This document shows, one piece after another, positions 1,205-52,536 of a DNA stretch of 64,000 nt. The notes below the pieces were generated by a model that saw only the letters and a program-made list of their open reading frames with translations, was not told the DNA's origin and did not search any database. The position numbers and the translations under genes were made by a program. The number at the start of each line of letters is the position of its first letter. Positions within the stretch are counted from its first letter, which is position 1. Origin of the DNA: a virus; IMG/VR virus record IMGVR_UViG_3300034685_000168, positions 43,639-107,638 of that record; one strand, 5' to 3'.

Positions 1205-3322
1205 TTATTTATTAAGTAATCTTCTTAATGTATTAGATAAATTTAATCTTTTATCTTTTTTATTTTCTATGGTTTCAGTATCTAAACTAGATTGAGATTG
1301 GATAGCTTGTTTGATTTCATGATTAATAGAACTTTCGACTAACAACAATTCTCTTTTATAAATCTCTTTTAAACTATTAGAAGAAGTAATTTCTATTAAT
1401 TCTTTTAATCCATCTCTACGTTTACGTAATTCCATTTGATTTTCTATTTCAGTTTTACTATAAGTATTATTAGGGTCTATATGTTTAATCATAAACTTAT
1501 TTGCATCTATGTTATATATATAAGTATTTTTAGCATATTTAATAAACCATTGACCTATCATCCATGCCATTAATAAGTCATCGTGTTTACCATCTGGGTG
1601 ATCTATTCTACCATTTTTATTTTTAATACTTTGTATTTCAAGTATTAATCTTTCATCATATAATTTAGTTTTACATTCAGGTATTACGTCTTTATAAATA
1701 GAAGAATATAAAATATGTCTTGAAGCAGTAGTTGTTCTAAATCCAAAACACTTTTTATCAGGACCAACTATACTTCCAACATGATAGAAATCTCTTTTTT
1801 CCGGATGTATTGCGGTATCTACTTTTGTATTAAATATTCTTAAATACGGATTTATATTTGCATTTTCACAAAATGCTAAAACGTTATCTAATATAGATGC
1901 ACCTACATGATTACGTTCAGGTATATAAAGTAATTTATCATAATTAACTATAAAATCAAATGCTAATTCACTTATATGGAATAAATTACTTATATTACAT
2001 TTACAACTTGCAACTAATGATAAATCTTCTGGATCTAATACAACAAATGTTGTAAAGTCTTCCCCAATATCTTCAGAACTATCATTAGCTAATATTAAAC
2101 TTTTATTTTTTCTAAATTCATTAGATTCTATTTCACTTTTCTCTCTAAACCAATAAATTAATATATTATTAAAATTTTGTACATAACAAGCATCTTTTTT
2201 ATAATTACTTAATTCAGATAATAAAATTGGATTTAATATACTTGATGACCCTGAACCAACTGACCATTTCCCTAAGAAATCTCGTTCTACTTCTTCTCTT
2301 GTTAAGTTACCATTACGAATACGTTCTTCTAACCATGCTTTATCTTTACCTAATTGTAAATATGATTTAGTTATATAAACCATATTATTTTTAGAATTCT
2401 TAGTTACCAATGCAATTAATTCGTCATGATCTTTACAATCATAGATACCTTCATACCAAGGCATACATTTTTTAACAATAGAATATGCAAAATCTCCAGA
2501 AGCAGTTGTTAAATCACCAGCGGTTGTAAATATCATATTAGCTGTAGGCATATCATTTTTTTTAGCTTGTTCTGATGCAGCTGACATGGCACTTATAGCT
2601 GCTTTATACATAACTTCATTATTATTAATATATGGAAATTCATCCCATGCTAATAGTGGAACAGACATACCTCTAACTTTTCTATCAGCAGCTCGTCTAT
2701 CACTTTGACCAACGAATGTTAAAACTTTATTAAATAATTTATGATAATATAAACCTTCTTTATTATCTGTGTCTTTTATACTAGTATTAATTAACCATTG
2801 TGGTAAATCATCTCTCATAGATTTTAATCTACTAATGTTTTCTTGTCTAAGATCATTGGTACTCATTATTAATCCAATAGTATATCTAAATCCTAATAAA
2901 TACATCATTAAAATAACAATGGATAATAATGTAATAGTTTTACCTATCTGTCGTGCTATGACTAAAAATAAATTTATATCATTAAAAAATAACCACAATA
3001 CTGCTAAGTTAGCTTGATTAAATTCAAACATTACTGAATCACCAGATGATTGTGGTACTCTTAATATTTCTCTAAAAAAATATATAGGATTTATTTTTAT
3101 TTCAACTGCTATTTTTAACATAGTAGAATAAGATAAATTAGGATCTAAAGGATCTATATATCTAAGATCTTCTTGACATAAAGTTAAAAACCAATAATAA
3201 TTTTCTATACCTTTTTCTTTTAGTTTTTTAGCTTCTTTTATAGCTGATAAATTTTTAGTTTCCCAATGGATACCAATATTATTATTTTGTATCCCGTTTA
3301 TGTATAATAAATTTTTTTCCAT
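1205..3322 (-). CDS. terL: Terminase large subunit (packaging ATPase/nuclease)
   Basis: This is the 705-residue DNA packaging motor that pumps DNA through the portal and cuts concatemers. The N-terminal ATPase has a Walker A motif ARQIGKT at residues 123-129, matching the T4 gp17 form SRQLGKT. Walker B with the catalytic Glu is PLLAWDEF at about 222-229, followed by a coupling motif MIFTTAGD. The C-terminal RNase H-like nuclease keeps acidic residues in LANDSSEDIGEDFT and in HPDGKHDDLLMAWM. The length is somewhat above T4 gp17 (610 aa). The start at 3322 has an AAGGAT site. It lies beside the protease genes and is flanked by terminators at 1161 and 3340, so it is probably transcribed on its own as well as by read-through. 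Confidence 0.93.
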   Translation of the reverse strand: MEKNLLYINGIQNNNIGIHWETKNLSAIKEAKKLKEKGIENYYWFLTLCQEDLRYIDPLDPNLSYSTMLKIAVEIKINPIYFFREILRVPQSSGDSVMFEFNQANLAVLWLFFNDINLFLVIARQIGKTITLLSIVILMMYLLGFRYTIGLIMSTNDLRQENISRLKSMRDDLPQWLINTSIKDTDNKEGLYYHKLFNKVLTFVGQSDRRAADRKVRGMSVPLLAWDEFPYINNNEVMYKAAISAMSAASEQAKKNDMPTANMIFTTAGDLTTASGDFAYSIVKKCMPWYEGIYDCKDHDELIALVTKNSKNNMVYITKSYLQLGKDKAWLEERIRNGNLTREEVERDFLGKWSVGSGSSSILNPILLSELSNYKKDACYVQNFNNILIYWFREKSEIESNEFRKNKSLILANDSSEDIGEDFTTFVVLDPEDLSLVASCKCNISNLFHISELAFDFIVNYDKLLYIPERNHVGASILDNVLAFCENANINPYLRIFNTKVDTAIHPEKRDFYHVGSIVGPDKKCFGFRTTTASRHILYSSIYKDVIPECKTKLYDERLILEIQSIKNKNGRIDHPDGKHDDLLMAWMIGQWFIKYAKNTYIYNIDANKFMIKHIDPNNTYSKTEIENQMELRKRRDGLKELIEITSSNSLKEIYKRELLLVESSINHEIKQAIQSQSSLDTETIENKKDKRLNLSNTLRRLLNK

Positions 3323-3339: not shown

Positions 3340-3368
3340 GTTATAGGTTGGAAATACCAACCTATAAC
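3340..3368. terminator. Hairpin between pseudo-ClpP gene and terL
   Basis: A 12-bp perfect stem (GTTATAGGTTGG paired with its complement) has a 5-base AAATA loop. It lies between the end of the minus-strand gene at 3377 and the start of terL at 3322. Confidence 0.75.
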
Positions 3369-36121: not shown

Positions 36122-37354
36122 TTAGAAACTAATAAAATAATCTTCAAATTTAAACTTTTTTATATTAACTTTAGATCCATGCATAGATTTCATTTTAAAG
36201 TTCATAGTGTCATTACCAATTGATGCAATATTATCGACAACCGTTTTTTGTTCTAATAATTCATAATCCATATGTGTACAATGATAACATAAACCATTTT
36301 TTACTTTACAGTGAAAAGGATCTCGTAGTATTACTTTTTTATTTAAATATTGATTTATATTATCAATAGTTAAAACTACAGTTTTATCTCCTTCGATAAT
36401 ATATCGTCCTAAATAAGTTTCTGTATCTTTTATTATTTCTTCTCTACCTTCCGTAGTACCACAATCTATTTCTGATATTTCTAATGAACTAAATACTCTA
36501 TAAAGTAATTTAGCCAAATACCCACCTTCTCTAGTTCCAATACCTCTATCAGAAGAACCTTTTACAATAGTATTACATATAGCAGCAAAGTCTTTTTTTT
36601 TCCAACCTGATAATAATGAAGATTCAATAAAATCGAATGTTCCTTCATCTTTATTAAATCTCTCTACAACACCTTGCATTAAAAATAATGTTTTTCTATG
36701 TACATCAAAAGCTTTACTTCCTATAGCATCATAAAAAATAATACCTATATCATCTTTTAAAGTATCTCTATCTAGTGCAATAAGTTCATCTTCTATATTA
36801 ATAATAATTTTAAATTTTTCATTCTCATCTAAATTAGGATCTAATAATTCTTCTTTATGAAGATTTAATAATTCCTGAGCTCGTTTTAGCACTATATCAG
36901 AAACAACTATAGAATCACTACTAAAAGATGCCGTATGTAATTCATTAAAATGTGCTATAAACCTTAAATTATCTAAGAATATACCATAGTCTTCAACTGT
37001 TAAAGATTTATCATATAATCTTAATTTTATTTGTTGATGAATTTTACTAATAGTTGATTTAGTGAATCCTTCGTTTATATATTGAAAACTTTCTGTAAAA
37101 TTATCAATATGTTTAAATGGATCAACTAATAAAATATAATTACCAATATATTGTCCTATATTAGTTAATATTGGAGTATTTTTATTATAGTTTTCAATCA
37201 TACCTTTTTCTAAATAAAATTCCGATCTTAATGGTATTTTAAACTTAGTATCATTTTCATCTAAAGGTGGTGTGAATGTATCTATTAAAAATTTTCTATA
37301 TAATAAATTTTCTCTATTATCAACTAGATAATTTATTTGTTTTTCATTTAACAT
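36122..37354 (-). CDS. RNA polymerase beta' subunit piece: bridge helix, Zn2 site, start of trigger loop
   Basis: 410 residues corresponding to the part of RpoC after the catalytic NADFDGD loop. VKGSSDRGIGTREGGYLAKLL (264-284) matches the bridge-helix block [23 protein letters not shown] in length and key Gly/Tyr/Leu positions. IDCGTTEGR (Cys298) then CKVKNGLCYHC (Cys349, 356, 359) reproduce the four zinc ligands of RpoC, with the same C-x6-C-x2-C spacing. IASIGNDTMNFKMKSMHG matches [22 protein letters not shown], keeping the trigger-loop His (His392, E. coli His936). The frame stops 18 residues later, so the second trigger-loop helix and the rest of the jaw must be on another polypeptide. 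The catalytic Asp loop is also elsewhere. A clear start with GAAGGATAA. Confidence 0.88.
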   Translation of the reverse strand: MLNEKQINYLVDNRENLLYRKFLIDTFTPPLDENDTKFKIPLRSEFYLEKGMIENYNKNTPILTNIGQYIGNYILLVDPFKHIDNFTESFQYINEGFTKSTISKIHQQIKLRLYDKSLTVEDYGIFLDNLRFIAHFNELHTASFSSDSIVVSDIVLKRAQELLNLHKEELLDPNLDENEKFKIIINIEDELIALDRDTLKDDIGIIFYDAIGSKAFDVHRKTLFLMQGVVERFNKDEGTFDFIESSLLSGWKKKDFAAICNTIVKGSSDRGIGTREGGYLAKLLYRVFSSLEISEIDCGTTEGREEIIKDTETYLGRYIIEGDKTVVLTIDNINQYLNKKVILRDPFHCKVKNGLCYHCTHMDYELLEQKTVVDNIASIGNDTMNFKMKSMHGSKVNIKKFKFEDYFISF

Positions 37355-39768: not shown

Positions 39769-39797
39769 TTTTTTCTCCTTTTTATATCTAAGTTAAA

Positions 39798-39880
39798 AAG
39801 CCCTAAAAAAGTATAACGTATTAATAACTTTTATAGCTCTATTTTGGCTTAAAAAGACGTCCGTGTATAATGATACACGG
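39798..39880 (-). promoter_or_regulatory. Two stem-loops in the leader of the 39421 gene
   Basis: On the minus strand an 8-bp perfect hairpin at 39861-39880 (CCGTGTAT, 4-base loop) is followed by a longer element at 39798-39850 with AAGCC/GGCTT and AAAAGT/ACTTTT stems and a short T-run (GGCTTTTT), about 30 bases before the start codon. A 14-base palindrome (TTCCATTAATGGAA) lies at 39910-39923. This looks like an attenuator or protein-binding leader. The region 39769-40031 holds no gene. Confidence 0.45.
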
Positions 39881-39964
39881 TTTGTATTGAACCTGTTTTA
39901 TTTAACAAATTCCATTAATGGAATATATAACTAAAATTTTAATGAAAAAAAATAAGAGGAGTAT

Positions 39965-39998
39965 AGATAAGAGTGTGGATAAAACCACACTCTTATCT
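39965..39998. terminator. Terminator hairpin
   Basis: A perfect 14-bp stem (AGATAAGAGTGTGG with its complement) and a 6-base ATAAAA loop follow the stop of the 40032 gene by about 30 bases. Confidence 0.8.
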
Positions 39999-40031
39999 TA
40001 AAACTTAATTGTAATCATGATTAAAATTAAA

Positions 40032-40340: not shown

Positions 40341-40705
40341 TATTCCTTAAACTTTTTTTATTTGAAGTGACAAGATTATCATTTAACTCCTCTTAATTAA
40401 TTTAAATAAATACAAACATATTAATCACCTACCTTTCTTTTGTAATATCATAAAAGAAATATATAAATGATTTTTAATTGAAATATTAATATATACAACA
40501 CTCCGTATAAGAAAGCTATGCGGGGAAGCGGTCAGCTTCCACCCGCATAACCGCTTATACATCTGTGGCCCATTTTCTTGGTGTCCTCTCGGATCTTTAA
40601 TAGCATTACGCTTATTCTCTACATTAGTAGTTTATGTATACCAGGACGGGTACGTTATTACATCTAGTCTAACTTTAGTTGTAACCTTTAACAAAATTTA
40701 AAATA
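40341..40705. ncRNA. GC-rich structured RNA candidate (core 40500-40680)
   Basis: This 365-base gap has no credible gene, but the 60 bases from 40501 are about 53% G+C and the next 60 about 42%, far above the surrounding DNA. 40505-40560 folds into a long hairpin: GTATAAG with CTTATAC outside, TATGCGGG with CCCGCATA inside, then GAAGC/GCTTC around a GGTCA loop. More short inverted repeats follow to about 40680. In an AT-rich phage, such an island usually marks a folded RNA. The strand is not certain; on the minus strand it would be the 3' part of the mRNA from the highly expressed 40706 gene or a processed RNA. Confidence 0.5.
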
Positions 40706-41464
40706 TTATTTATTTTCAAAAATATTTGATAGCTCATCGAGTTTTACTTTTTTATCAGAACTTTGTTCTTTAAGTTGTTCAGTTTTTTCTTTAAGTTCTT
40801 TAATTTTATTTTCTGTCTTTTTAAGCTCTTCTTTTTTTTCAACAAGTAGTTGTTGATGAGATAATTCTTTCTGAGAAGCAGCAAGTTTTTTCTGTAGATC
40901 TAGAAGCTCAATCGTATATTCATTTTGATTTTTTTCGAACATAAGATCTGAAGCATCCAGAGCTGCTGCTTTTTTAGGAAAATGAACACGAATAAAATCT
41001 TCGACTTTCTGTTTAGTTTCTTCATCATCCCTAAGGTGATTTATATCCTGAAGAATGTCCAAATCATGTTTATTTTTCTTTGTTACTTTGTCGTAAATTA
41101 CAAACCAATCAAAAAATTCATTTATAACATAATCCCAAAATTTACCATTGAAGAATCTTCTGGAGTTGAAATTTTCAAGTCTAGAAGCTAGAATATCTCC
41201 AGGATTCATTTCAACTTCCCACACGTTATAAAAAATTTTACTAGTTCTATGTTGTTTCTTCTTTTTATCAAAGTATTTAATTTCTACAGGTTCTTTCGTA
41301 TGAGAAATTACAGTCACAACACCAGGGATATGGCTTCCATCGAATTTGAAGAAGTTCTCAAACTCTTGAGACCAGATAGTGTTAAATCTAGCTCGTCCAC
41401 CAGTAGAAGGTTTGTCAGTAATTTTAATTCTTCTTGGTTCTTCGTTCACAGTTTCATTTTGCAT
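40706..41464 (-). CDS. Hypothetical coiled-coil protein, high-expression codon use
   Basis: 252 residues from the ATG at 41464; AAGGAA ten bases upstream is the ribosome binding site, so a TTG at 41482 that overlaps it is rejected. The N-terminal 170 residues are a compact mixed domain rich in Phe, Trp and Lys (NNFFKFDGSHIPGVVTV-like, FWDYVINEFFDWFVIYD). Residues 175-250 are a continuous Lys/Glu/Gln coiled coil. Codon use is richer in G and C than its neighbours, similar to the tail sheath gene, which suggests an abundant product. It lies directly downstream of the origin-like region and upstream of the GC-rich element. Function unknown. Confidence 0.7.
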   Translation of the reverse strand: MQNETVNEEPRRIKITDKPSTGGRARFNTIWSQEFENFFKFDGSHIPGVVTVISHTKEPVEIKYFDKKKKQHRTSKIFYNVWEVEMNPGDILASRLENFNSRRFFNGKFWDYVINEFFDWFVIYDKVTKKNKHDLDILQDINHLRDDEETKQKVEDFIRVHFPKKAAALDASDLMFEKNQNEYTIELLDLQKKLAASQKELSHQQLLVEKKEELKKTENKIKELKEKTEQLKEQSSDKKVKLDELSNIFENK

Positions 41465-41646
41465 AAGTTTTATTTCCTTCAACGTGTTTAAAAGTTTTAT
41501 ATTTAGAAAATTATAAACTTCTGTTTTTTTTTACGATGAAAGTTATGTTTGATTGTTTTGTAGCAAGTGTGAATCGATGAAGTTGAATTATTTCTTATAT
41601 CATGATAACCTTTTTTGTTTTCGCTAAAACCAAGCATTTTTTAAAA

Positions 41647-41796
41647 GCTTCTTGATTTCTCTAAACTTTTTTCTTAACTTCTTGATTTACAATAAAATTC
41701 TTATTAACTTCTTGTTTTCTAAGGCTTTTCTATTCTTCTTCTTGATTTACAACACTTTTCTCTCTAATCTCTTGATTTACAACTAAAAATTCTCTA
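41647..41796. repeat. Five tandem 30-bp repeats (iteron-like)
   Basis: CTTGATTTCT, CTTGATTTAC, CTTGTTTTCT, CTTGATTTAC and CTTGATTTAC begin at 41651, 41681, 41711, 41741 and 41771, that is at an exact 30-base period. The conserved part is about 16 bases (ACTTCTTGATTTACAA); the remainder of each unit is a looser CT-rich filler. The array lies upstream of an AT tract and between two minus-strand genes. It is best read as binding sites for a replication or regulatory protein. Confidence 0.7.
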
Positions 41797-41854
41797 ACCT
41801 AGACTTTTAGGGTTAAAAGAAAAAAGTAACATAAAAAAGAAAAGACTAAATGTA

Positions 41855-41877
41855 TATATAATACTTCGTATTATATA
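41855..41877. repeat. Palindrome copy 1 in AT tract
   Basis: Ten-base arms TATATAATAC and GTATTATATA flank a TTC centre. A copy differing at a single central base lies at 41966-41988, 111 bases away. Confidence 0.75.
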
Positions 41878-41965
41878 TATCTAATTATATAAAGGTAATC
41901 AAAAATTTATTATATATAATAATATTAATAATATATATTATTTATATAATTATATAAATAACAAG

Positions 41966-41988
41966 TATATAATACTACGTATTATATA
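41966..41988. repeat. Palindrome copy 2 in AT tract
   Basis: The same ten-base arms as copy 1, with a TAC centre instead of TTC. Twin identical palindromes suggest a dimeric protein site or paired hairpins rather than chance in AT-rich DNA. Confidence 0.75.
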
Positions 41989-42249
41989 TTATTAATTATA
42001 TAATATTTAAACAATACATATTATTATATTATAATATATATAATAAATTAAGATAAGGTATAAAAGAAAAAAAGAAAAGAAAAAAAGAAAAAAAGAAAAT
42101 TTTGAGAAAAAGAGATTTTTGTAAGATTGCTTTTTTTTCCTTTTTCGTTTTTTTTTAGAAAATTAAGATTAAATTTTTTAGATAACTGTAAATAAAATTT
42201 TAGATTAGATCATAAAAAAATACATACAGTTATCATGTTATAAAAAACT

Positions 42250-42585
42250 TTAAGAAGAAATTGAATTGAATTTTGAGTTGTTTATTTCTTCTGAATTTAG
42301 ACTTAGTGAGTAGTTATATTCGTTTCTTGCAAAAATAGTTTGAATTATTTTATATTTTCTTGTTAACAAGAGTTTATCTTCAACATAAACTTCATACGAA
42401 GTACTTTGATTTTTATTAATCTTGAAATTAACTAGAATTTTTTTATTAATATCATCAATGAATTTTATTTTACCTGTAATTTTGAAATTTTGTATTAATT
42501 CTATAACTCTATCAAGATCTTCATCGAAGAATTTTAGAATAGCTGAAGCTATGATATCTTGTTCTGATAAATTTATACAATTCAT
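42250..42585 (-). CDS. Small hypothetical protein beside origin-like region
   Basis: 111 residues, starting MNCINLSEQDIIASAILKFF, with a helical first half and a strand-rich second half (KFIDDINKKILVNFKIN). CTAGGAG lies 11 bases before the ATG. It is transcribed towards the origin-like region and divergently from the 42697 gene. No family recognised. Confidence 0.65.
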   Translation of the reverse strand: MNCINLSEQDIIASAILKFFDEDLDRVIELIQNFKITGKIKFIDDINKKILVNFKINKNQSTSYEVYVEDKLLLTRKYKIIQTIFARNEYNYSLSLNSEEINNSKFNSISS

Positions 42586-44022: not shown

Positions 44023-44353
44023 ATTATATTTTTTTATACAAACTACTTATTATATAAAAGTAATTATTGTTAGTATTAATATATGGGATATAGAAGAAAA
44101 CCTCTTTTAAGTAAAAACATTTATATTATTCTGTATATTAATATTCTTTTAACATTATTATAAATTTGCCTCGGTTTATAGTAATGTCATAAGAAATCCT
44201 CTTTCTTTTTTTGGTTGATATAACCTGTTTTGCTCTTAGTGTATATCCCTAGTTAAACTAGGGATATACACTAAAGTAATCTATTATAAAAAATTATACA
44301 AAATTGTTATTATATATAAAAATTTATAATAATTAACAAAAAGGTATTAAAAT
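44023..44353 (+). ncRNA. Gene-free region, possible small RNA 1
   Basis: TTATTATATAA at 44047-44057 resembles a promoter and the segment ends at a strong hairpin (44236-44274), giving a possible transcript of about 200 bases. Only a 26-codon frame (start 44082, hydrophobic, no ribosome site) is present. The stretch AATCCTCTTTCTTTTT then GGTTGATAT before the hairpin is repeated in similar form in the region after rnhA. A further TTATTATATATAAA at 44307 probably serves rnhA. Confidence 0.4.
44236..44274. terminator. Long terminator hairpin
   Basis: A perfect 17-bp stem (TTAGTGTATATCCCTAG with its complement) and a 5-base TTAAA loop form the longest hairpin stem with a loop in the window. Confidence 0.8.
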
Positions 44354-44788
44354 ATGATATATAATTTAACAGCATATACCGATGGATCTTATTTTAGGAA
44401 CAATGGTGGTAATGCGTCTATAGTCCTTCATGGTTCTAATTTTTTATTAATATTAGAAAGAGAAACTAGTTCATACGTTACTAATAATCGTATGGAATTA
44501 AAAGCAGTAATAAATATATTAAAACATCTTAATAGTCAATGTAATATAACTATTTATTGTGATAGTAAATATGTTGTGGATAGTATAGACCAAGGATGGG
44601 TTAATAATTGGGTTAATAATAATTGGCGTAATAGTGGTGGAGATGTAAAGAATAGAGATTTATGGGAAGAATACTTAATGTATTCTCAATATCATAATGT
44701 TAAAATGATATGGGTTAGAGGACATGATGGGAATATAGATAATGAGTTTGTAGATGAGATGGCTAATTATGCAAGAAAATATTTATAA
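44354..44788 (+). CDS. rnhA: Ribonuclease HI
   Basis: 144 residues, full length for bacterial RNase HI (155 aa). It keeps the whole catalytic set: YTDGSY with Asp8, NNRMELKAV with Glu49, YCDSKYVVDSI with Asp71, and WVRGHDGNIDNEFVDEMA with the catalytic His and the last Asp. It cuts RNA in RNA-DNA hybrids, removing replication primers or R-loops. It is preceded by AAAAAGGTATTAAAAT and a TTATTATATATAAA promoter-like motif at 44307, and is a single-gene unit facing the split DNA polymerase gene, in keeping with a replication role. Confidence 0.95.
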   Translation: MIYNLTAYTDGSYFRNNGGNASIVLHGSNFLLILERETSSYVTNNRMELKAVINILKHLNSQCNITIYCDSKYVVDSIDQGWVNNWVNNNWRNSGGDVKNRDLWEEYLMYSQYHNVKMIWVRGHDGNIDNEFVDEMANYARKYL

Positions 44789-44958: not shown

Positions 44959-47133
44959 CTAGTTAATATATTGATCCATTAATAGAGTTACTTTTTTCTT
45001 ATTTTTATTTTTATCCATAGTTGCTTCTATTTTCAATGATTCTAGAATCATATAGATAGTTGACATATTCTCATAAATAATTTGCCTTCTATCCACTAAT
45101 GGTTTAATAATATCTGGAATAATATCATATTGTAAACTTAATGCTAACTTAGAAGGGAATATTTTATATTTAGCTTTTCTGGTTTTAGGTTGTTTATTAG
45201 GATGAACTTGATTCCATAGATCATCTATATACTTTTCTAATTTCTTAAAGAATTTATTATGATTTTCTGCTAACCAATTAAGATATCCTTCGTCTATATC
45301 ATTAAGTGGTATAACTTTAGTTTTAGTTGGTATATTGAGTTCTCCAAATTTATCAGCGAATAATGAATTCCATAAATCTGAATATAACCAATTAGAACTT
45401 AAATGATTTTTATAATCTTCTTCATTCTTAATAGAAACTGATTTAATGTAATCTGTTGTACCTTCATCTATAGATTTATTAATATCTAATTCTCTTTCTA
45501 AAGCTATATTAATAAATTCTCTAGCACTAATTGTTCCTTCTGCAACATCAGTCATTATTTTCTTTAAGAAATAATCTATAAAATCAGATGTTTTATCTGG
45601 AAACACAGATGATCTTAATTGTATCCCTTTAATATCATATTTATTTTTTAATAATACCATTCCTTCTACCATTGTTATTAATGAAGCATAATGTTTTTTA
45701 ACATTAAATCCTATATATAGAGGCATAAGAAACTCATTCTTCATTACCATCCTATGAGATTCTTTTTCACTACTCCCATGTGCGATACTATATTTATAAA
45801 GAGTTTTAAACATAGTTTTAGCAACTAAGAAAATAACTAATGAAGATATTTCATATAAACCTTGTGTAATTTTAACTTCTTCTCCAGTATAAAGTGTAAC
45901 CCAATTATGACATGAATAAATACAACTATCAGTATCGGAACCAGGAACTGTATTACGTCTCATTAAATGTTTAGTATTTATATTATCTATTTGTGTTTTA
46001 GTATCTATTAGAATATTGTAAATAGACATTAGTTCATTGAGTTTATTTTCTACATGGTTATAAATGTGAATTATTTCTTTATATAATTCTGTATTAACAG
46101 TTGAAAGTTCTATAATAGAATAAACTCTATCTTTATTAGTTTTAGGATCTTTTAAAATTAATTTATCACCTATATTGATACTAACTAATATTAATATATC
46201 TTCATCGAATGAGTTATGAAATTCAGTAAAATTGTGTGGTATAGATGAAGTATCTATATTTTTAAAGTCAAATAGATCTTTTAAAAAAGGTAAAAAGAAG
46301 TGTGTATTTTTCCAGAATAAATAATAAAGATTATTAACATAATAAATATATATAAGTTCTTCTTTACTCATATTATTTATTATAGATGTTGATTTAGTTA
46401 GTTTATCGAAAAAAGAATAATTACGAACTTGTTTAGTAAAGTGTTCTATTACATCTTCTTTAGTTGGTAATTTAAAATTGTATTTATTAATTATTTCTAA
46501 TACTTCATTATGTTTATCAAATTGTTTTAAATGAGTTATAATGTAATTTACAACATCATTATCACAAGTTAAATGAAAATTACCACCTATAGTATTTTCT
46601 ATACAAGTAGTTGCATTTTTAATAAGTGATCTTGCTAAAGAAGTAATAGCATTATAATTACCTTTATCATATTGTGCATTATAAGGACTATTATATGATC
46701 CAGGTAATGTATTAACTCGTATTTTTTTATTACCTTGTGCAAAGTTTTTTAAATTAGCTAAATCTTCTTTGCCTTGTGCTCTAAGTTTAAATCCTTCTTT
46801 TTTAATTTGACTTCTTTCTTTTAATCTAACTATAATGTAATCTGATAGTAATGATTTTTCTTCTTCTTCTGGAATATATACACTACCACTAGGAGTAATA
46901 ATATTTTTTTTATTAGCATTTATCCAATTCATTAGAGATTGATTTTTAACTACTACTTCACCTTTTTCAGTAATAATATTACCTATAGTTAAATCTTTAA
47001 AATTGTCTTGTATATATCCTTTTAGTATTTCTCTTACTTGTTCTTCTTTTCCAATATATTTACCAGTACGAAGTAGAGCATCATATTGATTCTCAAAATA
47101 ACATACTAATAAATCTAAACGTTCTCTGCTCAT
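44959..47133 (-). CDS. Family B DNA polymerase, C-terminal part (fingers, palm motif C, thumb)
   Basis: 724 residues from the ATG at 47133, which has AAAGGG nine bases upstream; the longer frame to 47187 would include the promoter zone. Residues 95-170 match the fingers and motif B region (KIRVNTLPGSYNSPYN for KxxxNSxYG, then KGNYNAITSLARSLI). GSDTDSCIYS at 398-407 is motif C (GDTDS) with both catalytic Asp. MVMKNEFLMPLYIGFNVKKH then YASLITMVEG and IKGIQLRSSVFP match the KxExEx..KKRYA..KGxxxxRxD block of the palm and thumb. Motif A (DxxSLYPS) and the 3'-5' exonuclease are absent, so the enzyme must be completed by a second polypeptide encoded outside the window. Confidence 0.87.
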   Translation of the reverse strand: MSRERLDLLVCYFENQYDALLRTGKYIGKEEQVREILKGYIQDNFKDLTIGNIITEKGEVVVKNQSLMNWINANKKNIITPSGSVYIPEEEEKSLLSDYIIVRLKERSQIKKEGFKLRAQGKEDLANLKNFAQGNKKIRVNTLPGSYNSPYNAQYDKGNYNAITSLARSLIKNATTCIENTIGGNFHLTCDNDVVNYIITHLKQFDKHNEVLEIINKYNFKLPTKEDVIEHFTKQVRNYSFFDKLTKSTSIINNMSKEELIYIYYVNNLYYLFWKNTHFFLPFLKDLFDFKNIDTSSIPHNFTEFHNSFDEDILILVSINIGDKLILKDPKTNKDRVYSIIELSTVNTELYKEIIHIYNHVENKLNELMSIYNILIDTKTQIDNINTKHLMRRNTVPGSDTDSCIYSCHNWVTLYTGEEVKITQGLYEISSLVIFLVAKTMFKTLYKYSIAHGSSEKESHRMVMKNEFLMPLYIGFNVKKHYASLITMVEGMVLLKNKYDIKGIQLRSSVFPDKTSDFIDYFLKKIMTDVAEGTISAREFINIALERELDINKSIDEGTTDYIKSVSIKNEEDYKNHLSSNWLYSDLWNSLFADKFGELNIPTKTKVIPLNDIDEGYLNWLAENHNKFFKKLEKYIDDLWNQVHPNKQPKTRKAKYKIFPSKLALSLQYDIIPDIIKPLVDRRQIIYENMSTIYMILESLKIEATMDKNKNKKKVTLLMDQYIN

Positions 47134-47177
47134 TTTATAAACCCTTTCATTATTGTTCTTTCTTTTTTTATGGTTAT

Positions 47178-47199
47178 TAATAATCATATATAATTAAAA
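47178..47199 (-). promoter_or_regulatory. Conserved promoter-like element, copy 3
   Basis: Plus-strand TAATAATCATATATAATTAA plus AA aligns with the elements at 27051 and 34813, differing at four positions, and again lies 45 bases upstream of the minus-strand start codon (47133). The same AT-rich stretch may also serve the divergent gene at 47239. Confidence 0.5.
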
Positions 47200-50414: not shown

Positions 50415-50798
50415 AGTATTAAAAATTCTGAAGGATATGAGAAATATAGATCTTTTAGAATTATATCGAAGCAAACTATAGATGAATTAAATTTTGCTAA
50501 TAGATTTTGTTTATTAGAAAGAAATAAAAATAAAAAAGTAGAAGGTTTTTTTGGTCCCAATAAAGATTTAAAAGAAGATATAATAGAATTTTTATATAAT
50601 TCACATGTTACAGAAAAACTAGGGTTATCTTTTGATAAGATATTTTATAATGAAGATTTAAATTCTTATTTAAAGATTAAACGTAAAGAAGATGAATATT
50701 GTGAAAAATTAAGAAAAGCTAAAAATTCTAATGATAATGAAGAATCAGAAATTAATATGAAAAAAATAATGAAGGAGTTTAAAAAATATGACAGATAA
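50331..50798 (+). CDS. C-terminal extension reached by -1 frameshift
   Basis: The -1 frame is open from 50283 to 50798 and reads YRSLPTIDYSSFENDLALSI then NTYNKLVDSIKNSEG after the slip, a natural-looking protein sequence of 155 residues that is mostly helical and charged. There is no ATG or ribosome site near its beginning (a TTG at 50406 has none), so it is not an independent gene. It would be made only as a fusion to the first 479 residues of the 48895 gene. Its last 11 bases overlap the start of the chaperonin gene, giving translational coupling. Confidence 0.75.
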   Translation, partial: YRSLPTIDYSSFENDLALSINTYNKLVDSIKNSEGYEKYRSFRIISKQTIDELNFANRFCLLERNKNKKVEGFFGPNKDLKEDIIEFLYNSHVTEKLGLSFDKIFYNEDLNSYLKIKRKEDEYCEKLRKAKNSNDNEESEINMKKIMKEFKKYDR

Positions 50799-52536
50799 AT
50801 TAGAGACTGCGGAGAAAATAAGATATGTAACTAATCTAAGATCTGATAAGTCTAACATTATTAGTAATGAAGAAATTAGATCTAAAATCCTTGAAGTTTT
50901 TGATATTATAGAAAATGAACTTTATAAGCATTGTGGTCCTAAAAGTAATTATGCAATGATTATAGACCCTGCTAGATATGCAGATCCTGTATTTACTAAA
51001 GATGGTATTAATATTGTAAGAAGTATGGAATTTATTAATGAGATTTCGAATACTGCGAAAAGAATAATTGCTTATATTGGAAAAAAAATAGATAAGTCTT
51101 CGTTTGATGGTACAACTACATCTATGATTATATTTATATCGGCTATTAAACATATAATCGATGGTGGTGAATTGTTTGATATGCCAACAAGTGTTATAAA
51201 CAAATGTTATAATAATTTTGTAAAAGAGTTTAATACTAAATATGAAGATTGTATTTATACAGTAGATAAATTAATGGATCTTACAGGAAAAACTAAAGAT
51301 GAAATTATTTATCAAATTGCATACTCACAAGCTTATACATCTTCTCATGGTGATACAGAACTAGCACAAGTAGTTGCTGAATGTTTTGTTAAAAACCAAT
51401 ATGATAATTTTAAATCTATTATAATAGAACGATCTGAAATAGAATCTGAAAGTAGATTTATTATTAATGAATATACAAAACAATTTGAGACAGATGATGT
51501 TTATCCTATTTCATTTAAGATGAATAATGAAAATCTTAATACATCTTTTAAAAAAGAAAAAGTAGATCTTCTTCTATTCCAGGATGAACTTAATGATGGT
51601 GATAAAAATAGCCAATACATTATGTCAGAAATACTAAGAGTAATACAAGATAAAGAAAGTAATGATCTTGTTATTTTAACTAATGGTATGACTAATTTTG
51701 GTAAACAAGAAATTATACAAGTTCTTAATGAATATAATGCGTTTGATAGAGTTGCTGTTTTTATTAAATCCTGGAATCATACATTGGAAGAAGTTAATGA
51801 TCTTCTTATTCTACGCAATATTATTGTACAAAATGACAGTACTCCAATGTATGAAGTGATTAAAACAGAAAATGCTGAAATAGAATGTAAGAATAGTAAA
51901 TTAGCTATTGGTAATCTTTTTGAAAGAAATGAAGATGGAACTCATCCATTTTATCATGATAAAACTAAAAAAGAATTTCATAAGCTTCTTACTATAATTG
52001 ATAATATGATCAAAGATCTTGAAGAAGATACTGCACCTAATACTATACAAAAAATAAATAGAATTAGAAAAGTATATAGTAGAATAGTTTATCCTATAAC
52101 TACAAGTATTAAGATTTGTGGCAAAGGATATGATAATATTAGTATGATTGATGTTATCACTGATGTTGTTGGTGCAACCAAAGTTTCGTTACAGAATGGT
52201 TTTGTTCCTGCTTCTGGTGTTGCATTTTATACAACACTTGATAAATTAGATCCTTATTTGAATAAGAATAGTATTTTTATAAAAGCATTTAAACAAGTAT
52301 TACGAAAAATATCTGACCATATTGGAACACTGGGATTTGATATTGAAGTATTCTATGATGTTATAACTAAAGTAGGATATCATATTACAGACTTTGATGT
52401 TCCATGGATAATTCAACCTAGTACAATAGATAAAGTTATTATTGAAAGATTTGGAGAAAGTGCTCTGAAGATTATTAAAACTGATAAAATTGTTGCTATA
52501 GGTGGAATTAACTTAAAAGAAGAAGTTACTGAATAA
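50788..52536 (+). CDS. GroEL-like chaperonin
   Basis: 582 residues against about 548 for GroEL. The nucleotide-binding region is clear: HCGPKSNYAM for TLGPKGRNVV, VFTKDGINIVRSMEF for TITKDGVSVAREIEL, and DKSSFDGTTTS for NDAAGDGTTTA with the ATP-hydrolysis Asp. In the C-terminal equatorial part, MIDVITDVVGATKVSLQNGF and VPASGVAF match RVEDALHATRAAVEEGVV and AGGGVAL, keeping the second catalytic Asp. The apical domain is diverged, so its substrate or co-chaperonin choice may differ. No GroES-like gene was recognised in the window. AAGGAG lies inside the upstream gene, 9 bases before the ATG. Phage GroEL-like proteins are known from jumbo phages such as EL, OBP and AR9. Confidence 0.88.
   Translation: MTDKLETAEKIRYVTNLRSDKSNIISNEEIRSKILEVFDIIENELYKHCGPKSNYAMIIDPARYADPVFTKDGINIVRSMEFINEISNTAKRIIAYIGKKIDKSSFDGTTTSMIIFISAIKHIIDGGELFDMPTSVINKCYNNFVKEFNTKYEDCIYTVDKLMDLTGKTKDEIIYQIAYSQAYTSSHGDTELAQVVAECFVKNQYDNFKSIIIERSEIESESRFIINEYTKQFETDDVYPISFKMNNENLNTSFKKEKVDLLLFQDELNDGDKNSQYIMSEILRVIQDKESNDLVILTNGMTNFGKQEIIQVLNEYNAFDRVAVFIKSWNHTLEEVNDLLILRNIIVQNDSTPMYEVIKTENAEIECKNSKLAIGNLFERNEDGTHPFYHDKTKKEFHKLLTIIDNMIKDLEEDTAPNTIQKINRIRKVYSRIVYPITTSIKICGKGYDNISMIDVITDVVGATKVSLQNGFVPASGVAFYTTLDKLDPYLNKNSIFIKAFKQVLRKISDHIGTLGFDIEVFYDVITKVGYHITDFDVPWIIQPSTIDKVIIERFGESALKIIKTDKIVAIGGINLKEEVTE

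Follow-up and report, generated by a model that had tools for sequence, protein, structure and literature searches.

A noncoding region of a distant phiKZ-like jumbo phage, located at positions 41483-42249 of the 64,000-nucleotide stretch of DNA that we analysed (hereafter the window), probably serves as a bidirectional origin of DNA replication. The region carries an array of direct repeats, an A/T-rich tract and palindromes; the strand bias of the genome changes at this site, and a melting-prone tract is found at the corresponding position in relatives of the virus. A preliminary description of the window had put the region forward as a candidate origin, a proposal that is now supported both by a skew switch that persists after correction for gene orientation and by the conservation of the tract in six independent relatives.

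The window comprises bases 43,639-107,638 of a 107,638-base virus fragment with a GC content of 23.9%; only 22 kb of this fragment (hereafter the contig) lie to the right of the site, so that a terminus is not in view. The phiKZ-type DNA polymerase and the split multisubunit RNA polymerase encoded on the contig (Table 1) identify the source as a member of the phiKZ-like jumbo phages. A search with one distant chimallin (ChmA) query, run without a positive control, gave no match in the contig (G000) or in the related records G001, G002, G004 and G005. Near relatives of the region at the DNA level were not found among phage records, and single-sequence searches with the 40706 protein, TerL and RNAP-beta likewise returned none. 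Profiles built from alignments of the polymerase and of RNAP-beta recovered relatives at about 30-38% identity, with an identity of about 30% for the polymerase. One of them (L184; JAFVPU010000067.1) is a 9.4-kb contig binned with a Clostridia MAG from sheep colon that carries the relatives of the polymerase, RNase H and RNAP-beta genes in the same order as here, a hint that gut Clostridia are hosts of this clade.

Table 1. Features of the proposed origin and its surroundings (window coordinates)
Feature	Position	Strand	Details or basis
Whole noncoding region, proposed replication origin	41483-42249	.	ORF content, noncoding length, GC3-skew sign change
Outer inverted repeat, left copy TTATATCATGATAAC	41593-41608	+	inverted repeat
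Five direct repeats (iterons), 30-bp spacing	41648-41797	+	units start at 41648, 41678, 41708, 41738, 41768
A/T tract, presumed DNA-unwinding element	41853-42055	.	203 bp, 7.4% GC
Palindrome 1, 12-bp stem, 3-base loop (TTC on +, GAA on -)	41853-41879	.	23-mer 41855-41877 = TATATAATACTTCGTATTATATA
Palindrome 2, 23-mer of palindrome 1 with one base changed, TATATAATACTACGTATTATATA	41966-41988	.	
Purine-only run, 38 bases	42062-42099	+	sequence
Outer inverted repeat, right copy TTATAACATGATAAC	42229-42244	-	inverted repeat
Neighbouring gene 40706, 252-253 aa, helix-rich C-terminus	40706-41467	-	
RNA polymerase beta fragment (split subunit)	36122-37354	-	phrog_2962, E 4.9e-69; landmark, opposite side
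RNase H gene	44354-44788	+	phrog_531, E 1.4e-40; locus landmark
phiKZ-type DNA polymerase	44959-47187	-	phrog_2927, E 4.4e-100; locus landmark
GroEL-like protein	50788-52536	+	
Large terminase gene	1205-3322		identified from its sequence only

With genes called by a simple longest-ORF rule, the noncoding stretch extends over 785 bp from position 41465 and is the second-longest of the contig; the longest (G000:C1 22578-23909, outside the window) spans 1,332 bp without an ORF of at least 60 aa. The largest ORFs inside the proposed origin reach 44 aa and none is credible. Its flanks are the tandem minus-strand genes 40706-41467 and 42250-42585, and the divergent junction proper (42585/42697) adjoins the region rather than lying inside it.

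Within this region, the proposed five units starting exactly 30 bases apart are indeed present: the best five-member progression at this spacing contains two mismatches in total, whereas each of 200 dinucleotide shuffles has at least nine. Iteron-type arrays comprise three or more direct repeats in a fixed helical phase, and the five units at 30 bp conform to this arrangement. Units 2, 4 and 5 carry the repeat core CTTGATTTACAA without a mismatch, and three of the five units match CTTGATTTAC exactly (at 41681, 41741 and 41771); neither is found elsewhere in the 107-kb contig. Since unit 1 (CTTGATTTCT) and unit 3 (CTTGTTTTCT) deviate, the initial wording of a conserved core was slightly generous. 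By lag autocorrelation, the array is the second-strongest periodicity of the contig; the strongest has a 36-bp lag and is located at about 28492 of G000:C1 (window coordinate -15146).

An A/T-rich and easily unwound segment adjoins the array, beginning 56 bp past its last unit. The 120-bp window with the lowest GC content in the contig lies within it (GC fraction 0.058 vs. 0.092 for the next), as do, by nearest-neighbour melting energy, the 100 bp of the contig that melt most easily. The other elements that had been read from the sequence at the outset, namely the absence of a gene, about 200 bases of nearly pure A/T, two 23-base palindromes differing by one base and a purine-only run behind them, were all recovered (Table 1). 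The single-stranded DNA hairpin potential of the tract exceeds that of all 200 shuffles (z -4.55), and single-strand hairpins stronger than those of shuffled sequences were found in all four tracts tested (the window and the relatives L065, L062 and L002); the palindrome centre ATACTTCGTAT is common to the tracts of the window and L062, and a purine-rich run also adjoins the tract of L065. Hairpin density as a locus-wide criterion was dropped, because terminators and other hairpins dominate it and the tract is not its top site.

The outer inverted repeat is a possible boundary element. The motif ATAACTGT, a candidate promoter or regulator motif, occurs at window positions 1139, 42182, 42226, 44793 and 44825 and at window coordinate -9117; it is enriched in intergenic DNA (6 vs. 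0.36 expected), and two of its copies lie within the proposed origin. A 331-bp noncoding stretch upstream of the RNase H gene contains a further palindrome (44236-44274), with a 1-base loop between perfect 19-bp arms (TTAGTGTATATCCCTAGTT), that may represent a second origin element. A GC-rich structured stretch with a long hairpin (40480-40620), set in a 371-bp noncoding gap of this 24% GC genome, has an RNA fold z of about -3.3 on both strands and possibly represents a noncoding RNA; it has no credible Rfam match, and the Rfam searches yielded no match at the gathering score and, below that score, matches at chance level only. Intergenic gaps contain recurring stem-loops based on GTTATAGG/CCTATAAC (window 3340-3368, 7706, and window coordinate -12473), which probably act as terminators or processing sites.

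Bidirectional origins are marked by a switch in strand composition, and such a switch is present at this site. We fitted the third-codon GC (GC3) skew of the genes by regression on gene orientation and searched for a single step along the 107-kb contig in an unbiased scan. The best step fell at 84-86 kb of the contig, which corresponds to 40.4-42.4 kb of the window, and was equalled by 2/300, 1/500 and 0/300 gene permutations in three runs. Plus-strand GC3 skew changes from between 0.0 and 0.06 to the left of the site to 0.29 to its right for plus-strand genes, and from between -0.15 and -0.21 to -0.04 for minus-strand genes; genes of both orientations thus shift in the same direction, by about +0.15 to +0.25. 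The GC-skew check suggested in the preliminary description accordingly gave a sign change of the orientation-corrected skew at the proposed origin. All-codon skew is consistent with this step (permutations 1/300 and 4/500); skew at four-fold sites by itself is not significant in the contig, because such sites are too few in an A/T-rich genome. When genes were bootstrapped, 48% of the replicates placed the best step no more than 3 kb from the tract (chance 6%), and 80% no more than 8 kb from it (chance 15%).

The tract is conserved in position among the relatives. In six independent readable relatives (L002, L062, L065, L099, L101 and G010), the lowest-GC window is found in the corresponding junction, a noncoding segment with the RNase H side, on the minus strand, to one side and plus-strand genes running towards RNAP-beta to the other (for the left flank in L101, only minus-strand ORFs could be read). 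At the level of entire records, the easiest-melting 100 bp lie at this junction in G001/G004 (the same virus, counted once), G003, G005, G006, G007 and G010; among these, the ends overlap in G005 (235 kb), G006 (238 kb) and G010 (265 kb), which are complete or almost complete genomes. For G010, the position of the tract was predicted before the sequence was retrieved, and the prediction proved correct: the tract is the lowest-GC window of the 265 kb. A tract is absent from the junction in L098, L102, L184 and G008, and the reference nucleus-forming phages PCH45, pEa_SNUABM_54 and sm033 have no comparable tract at the syntenic junction and have their skew minima elsewhere. Alignment of the window tract with that of L002 gave a suggestive AAAGTAACATAAA block; we did not use it as evidence, because it was not significant when the A/T-rich side was shuffled (101/300).

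Where skew can be read in the relatives, it usually points to the tract. In the complete genome G006, the best skew position (199 kb) coincides with the tract (199.3 kb; 0/60 permutations), and 77% of bootstraps fall within 3 kb of it; in G005, the tract is among the top 1.3% of skew positions (4/60 permutations), permutation numbers in circular genomes being small. The skew-inferred origin of G001 lies at 20.0 kb and its tract at 20.2 kb (12/300 permutations), and in G004 the best skew position (67 kb) is close to the tract (66.7 kb) with a test that is not significant overall. The skew test was not significant in G010, where the tract site ranks in the top 4.2% of positions, and G007 gave no skew signal. 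These tests are not fully independent of each other, because gene order is partly shared. Two further genomes serve as illustrations rather than tests, their sites having been picked after the skew was seen. In G008, the skew minimum falls at 72-73 kb, where a divergent noncoding region of 749 bp contains perfect palindromes and an A/T stretch. In G011, a step at 63-65 kb accounts for 52% of the variance (0/100) and falls at a 1,659-bp noncoding region, longer than any other in that contig; skew there is nearly orientation-independent (-0.163/-0.174 to the left, +0.204/+0.103 to the right), and two identical 33-base hairpin cores lie about 625 bp apart at the step. The G011 hairpins (L149, 8614-8666 and 9238-9290) have 21-bp perfect arms around the shared core AGCCTATAGCGGAACGAAGTGACGCTATAGGCT, and an 89%-identical 100-bp block stands beside each.

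Conservation of the 30-base spacing, which had been suggested as a further check, was only partly borne out. G006 contains tandem repeats of ~32/33 bp with TTCTTAACAAAA inside its tract, together with a palindrome with 22-bp arms, and in G010 repeats of a 13-bp type (TATGCCTTAAAGG and variants) extend into the tract; none were recognised in the tracts of G001, G003, G005 and G007. Judged from these sequences, what is conserved is the tract and its place, and the iterons come and go.

We envisage that a sequence-specific protein would bind all five repeats from the same face of the helix, the 30-bp spacing being close to three turns, and that the bound protein would wrap or bend the DNA and thereby strain the neighbouring A/T tract. 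The tract would then be the first segment to open, possibly aided by cruciform extrusion of the palindromes, and the replicative helicase could load at the opened tract, from which forks would leave in both directions. By its position, the 40706 protein is a candidate for the iteron-binding protein. It has no PHROG assignment, no Pfam match above the cut-off and no homologue in the relatives, and its single-sequence structure model (pLDDT 54) is too poor to be suited to a fold search. None of the genes next to the iterons is a recognisable initiator gene, and the neighbouring genes give no family. A DnaA-type origin was considered and rejected, as 41483-42249 contains no DnaA box; the nearest match (TTATCCACA, perfect, 39974-39982) lies roughly 1.7 kb from the repeats, within a noncoding gap (39769-40031), and DnaA-box matches occur across the window in a chance-level number.

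Could the same elements serve transcription instead? The tract would then be a cluster of early promoters recognised by the virion RNA polymerase, with the repeats acting as operators or as the untranslated leader of the 40706 mRNA. The region is located upstream of this minus-strand gene, TATATATAAT is found five times in the tract and also at several other intergenic sites, and phiKZ-related phages use A/T-rich early promoters, e.g., the AAATATATATTAT-6N-G element of the early virion RNAP promoter of AR9 (PMC5312081). Transcription may therefore start here. The very high A/T content is indeed shared with these intergenic elements of the phiKZ family, which are, however, short single elements before genes, whereas here ~200 bp with palindromes are combined with a repeat array and a skew switch (AR9; PMC5312081). 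The 785 bp far exceed most upstream regions of the contig, sigma-70-like sites are present at a chance number, and no terminator-like site is found. RNA from the repeat region folds less strongly than its shuffled versions do (z +1.77); because of this, and because the skew and the conservation would be left without explanation, a plain mRNA leader is unlikely. A purely transcriptional role would explain neither the replication-type skew change nor the finding that six relatives have their easiest-melting site at the corresponding locus, and we regard it as improbable. Several phage origins contain promoters, and promoters within the region may coexist with an origin.

A rather more remote alternative holds that the skew step reflects a switch between gene classes of different composition rather than replication, and that the tract is a mere A/T-rich spacer at a divergent junction. 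Gene order around the polymerase, RNase H and RNAP-beta genes is shared among the relatives, so that composition could be inherited along with it. However, gene orientation was corrected for and both orientations shift together, the skew of G011 is nearly independent of orientation, and G008, whose junction is without a tract, has its skew minimum at another divergent, palindromic noncoding region; a spacer would also not be expected to retain the lowest melting energy of the genome. Direct repeats are likewise typical of centromere-like and packaging sites, yet a partition, packaging or other protein-binding locus in place of an origin is highly improbable, as the large terminase gene is 40 kb away and such sites need no A/T tract with a skew switch.

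The layout of the proposed origin, with direct repeats in helical phase beside an A/T-rich unwinding segment that contains inverted repeats, resembles that of the iteron-type theta origins of phage lambda (ori), P1 (oriR), RK2 (oriV) and R6K (gamma); iterons beside an unwinding segment are a standard replicator arrangement. In these systems, the spacing is usually 17-22 bp and the cognate initiator gene usually lies beside the iterons, whereas here the spacing is 30 bp and no recognisable Rep or O-type initiator is adjacent. The region also differs from them in having no DnaA box, a component present in many but not all iteron-type theta origins and hence not strictly defining, and in that the tract is conserved while the type of repeat changes between relatives. 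Origin placement has been attempted in other giant phages: in those of Aeromonas, origins were predicted with Ori-Finder, predictions that their authors rated as of low reliability with many ori elements missing (PMC12390700). In contrast to these predictions, several lines of evidence converge on the region described here.

Among the papers that we searched, none turned up a phiKZ-like jumbo phage with a mapped origin. With its comparative and skew support, the 770-bp interval can be targeted directly by read-depth mapping and in the search for the initiator. With somewhat less than even confidence, we propose that it exemplifies a positionally conserved origin across a deep phiKZ-like clade, in which the tract and its place next to the replication and transcription genes would be kept as the initiator-binding repeats are replaced, pointing to a rapidly changing or unrecognised class of initiator. 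Orientation-corrected GC3 skew in combination with the easiest-melting noncoding tract of a genome would provide a recipe for locating origins in this group.
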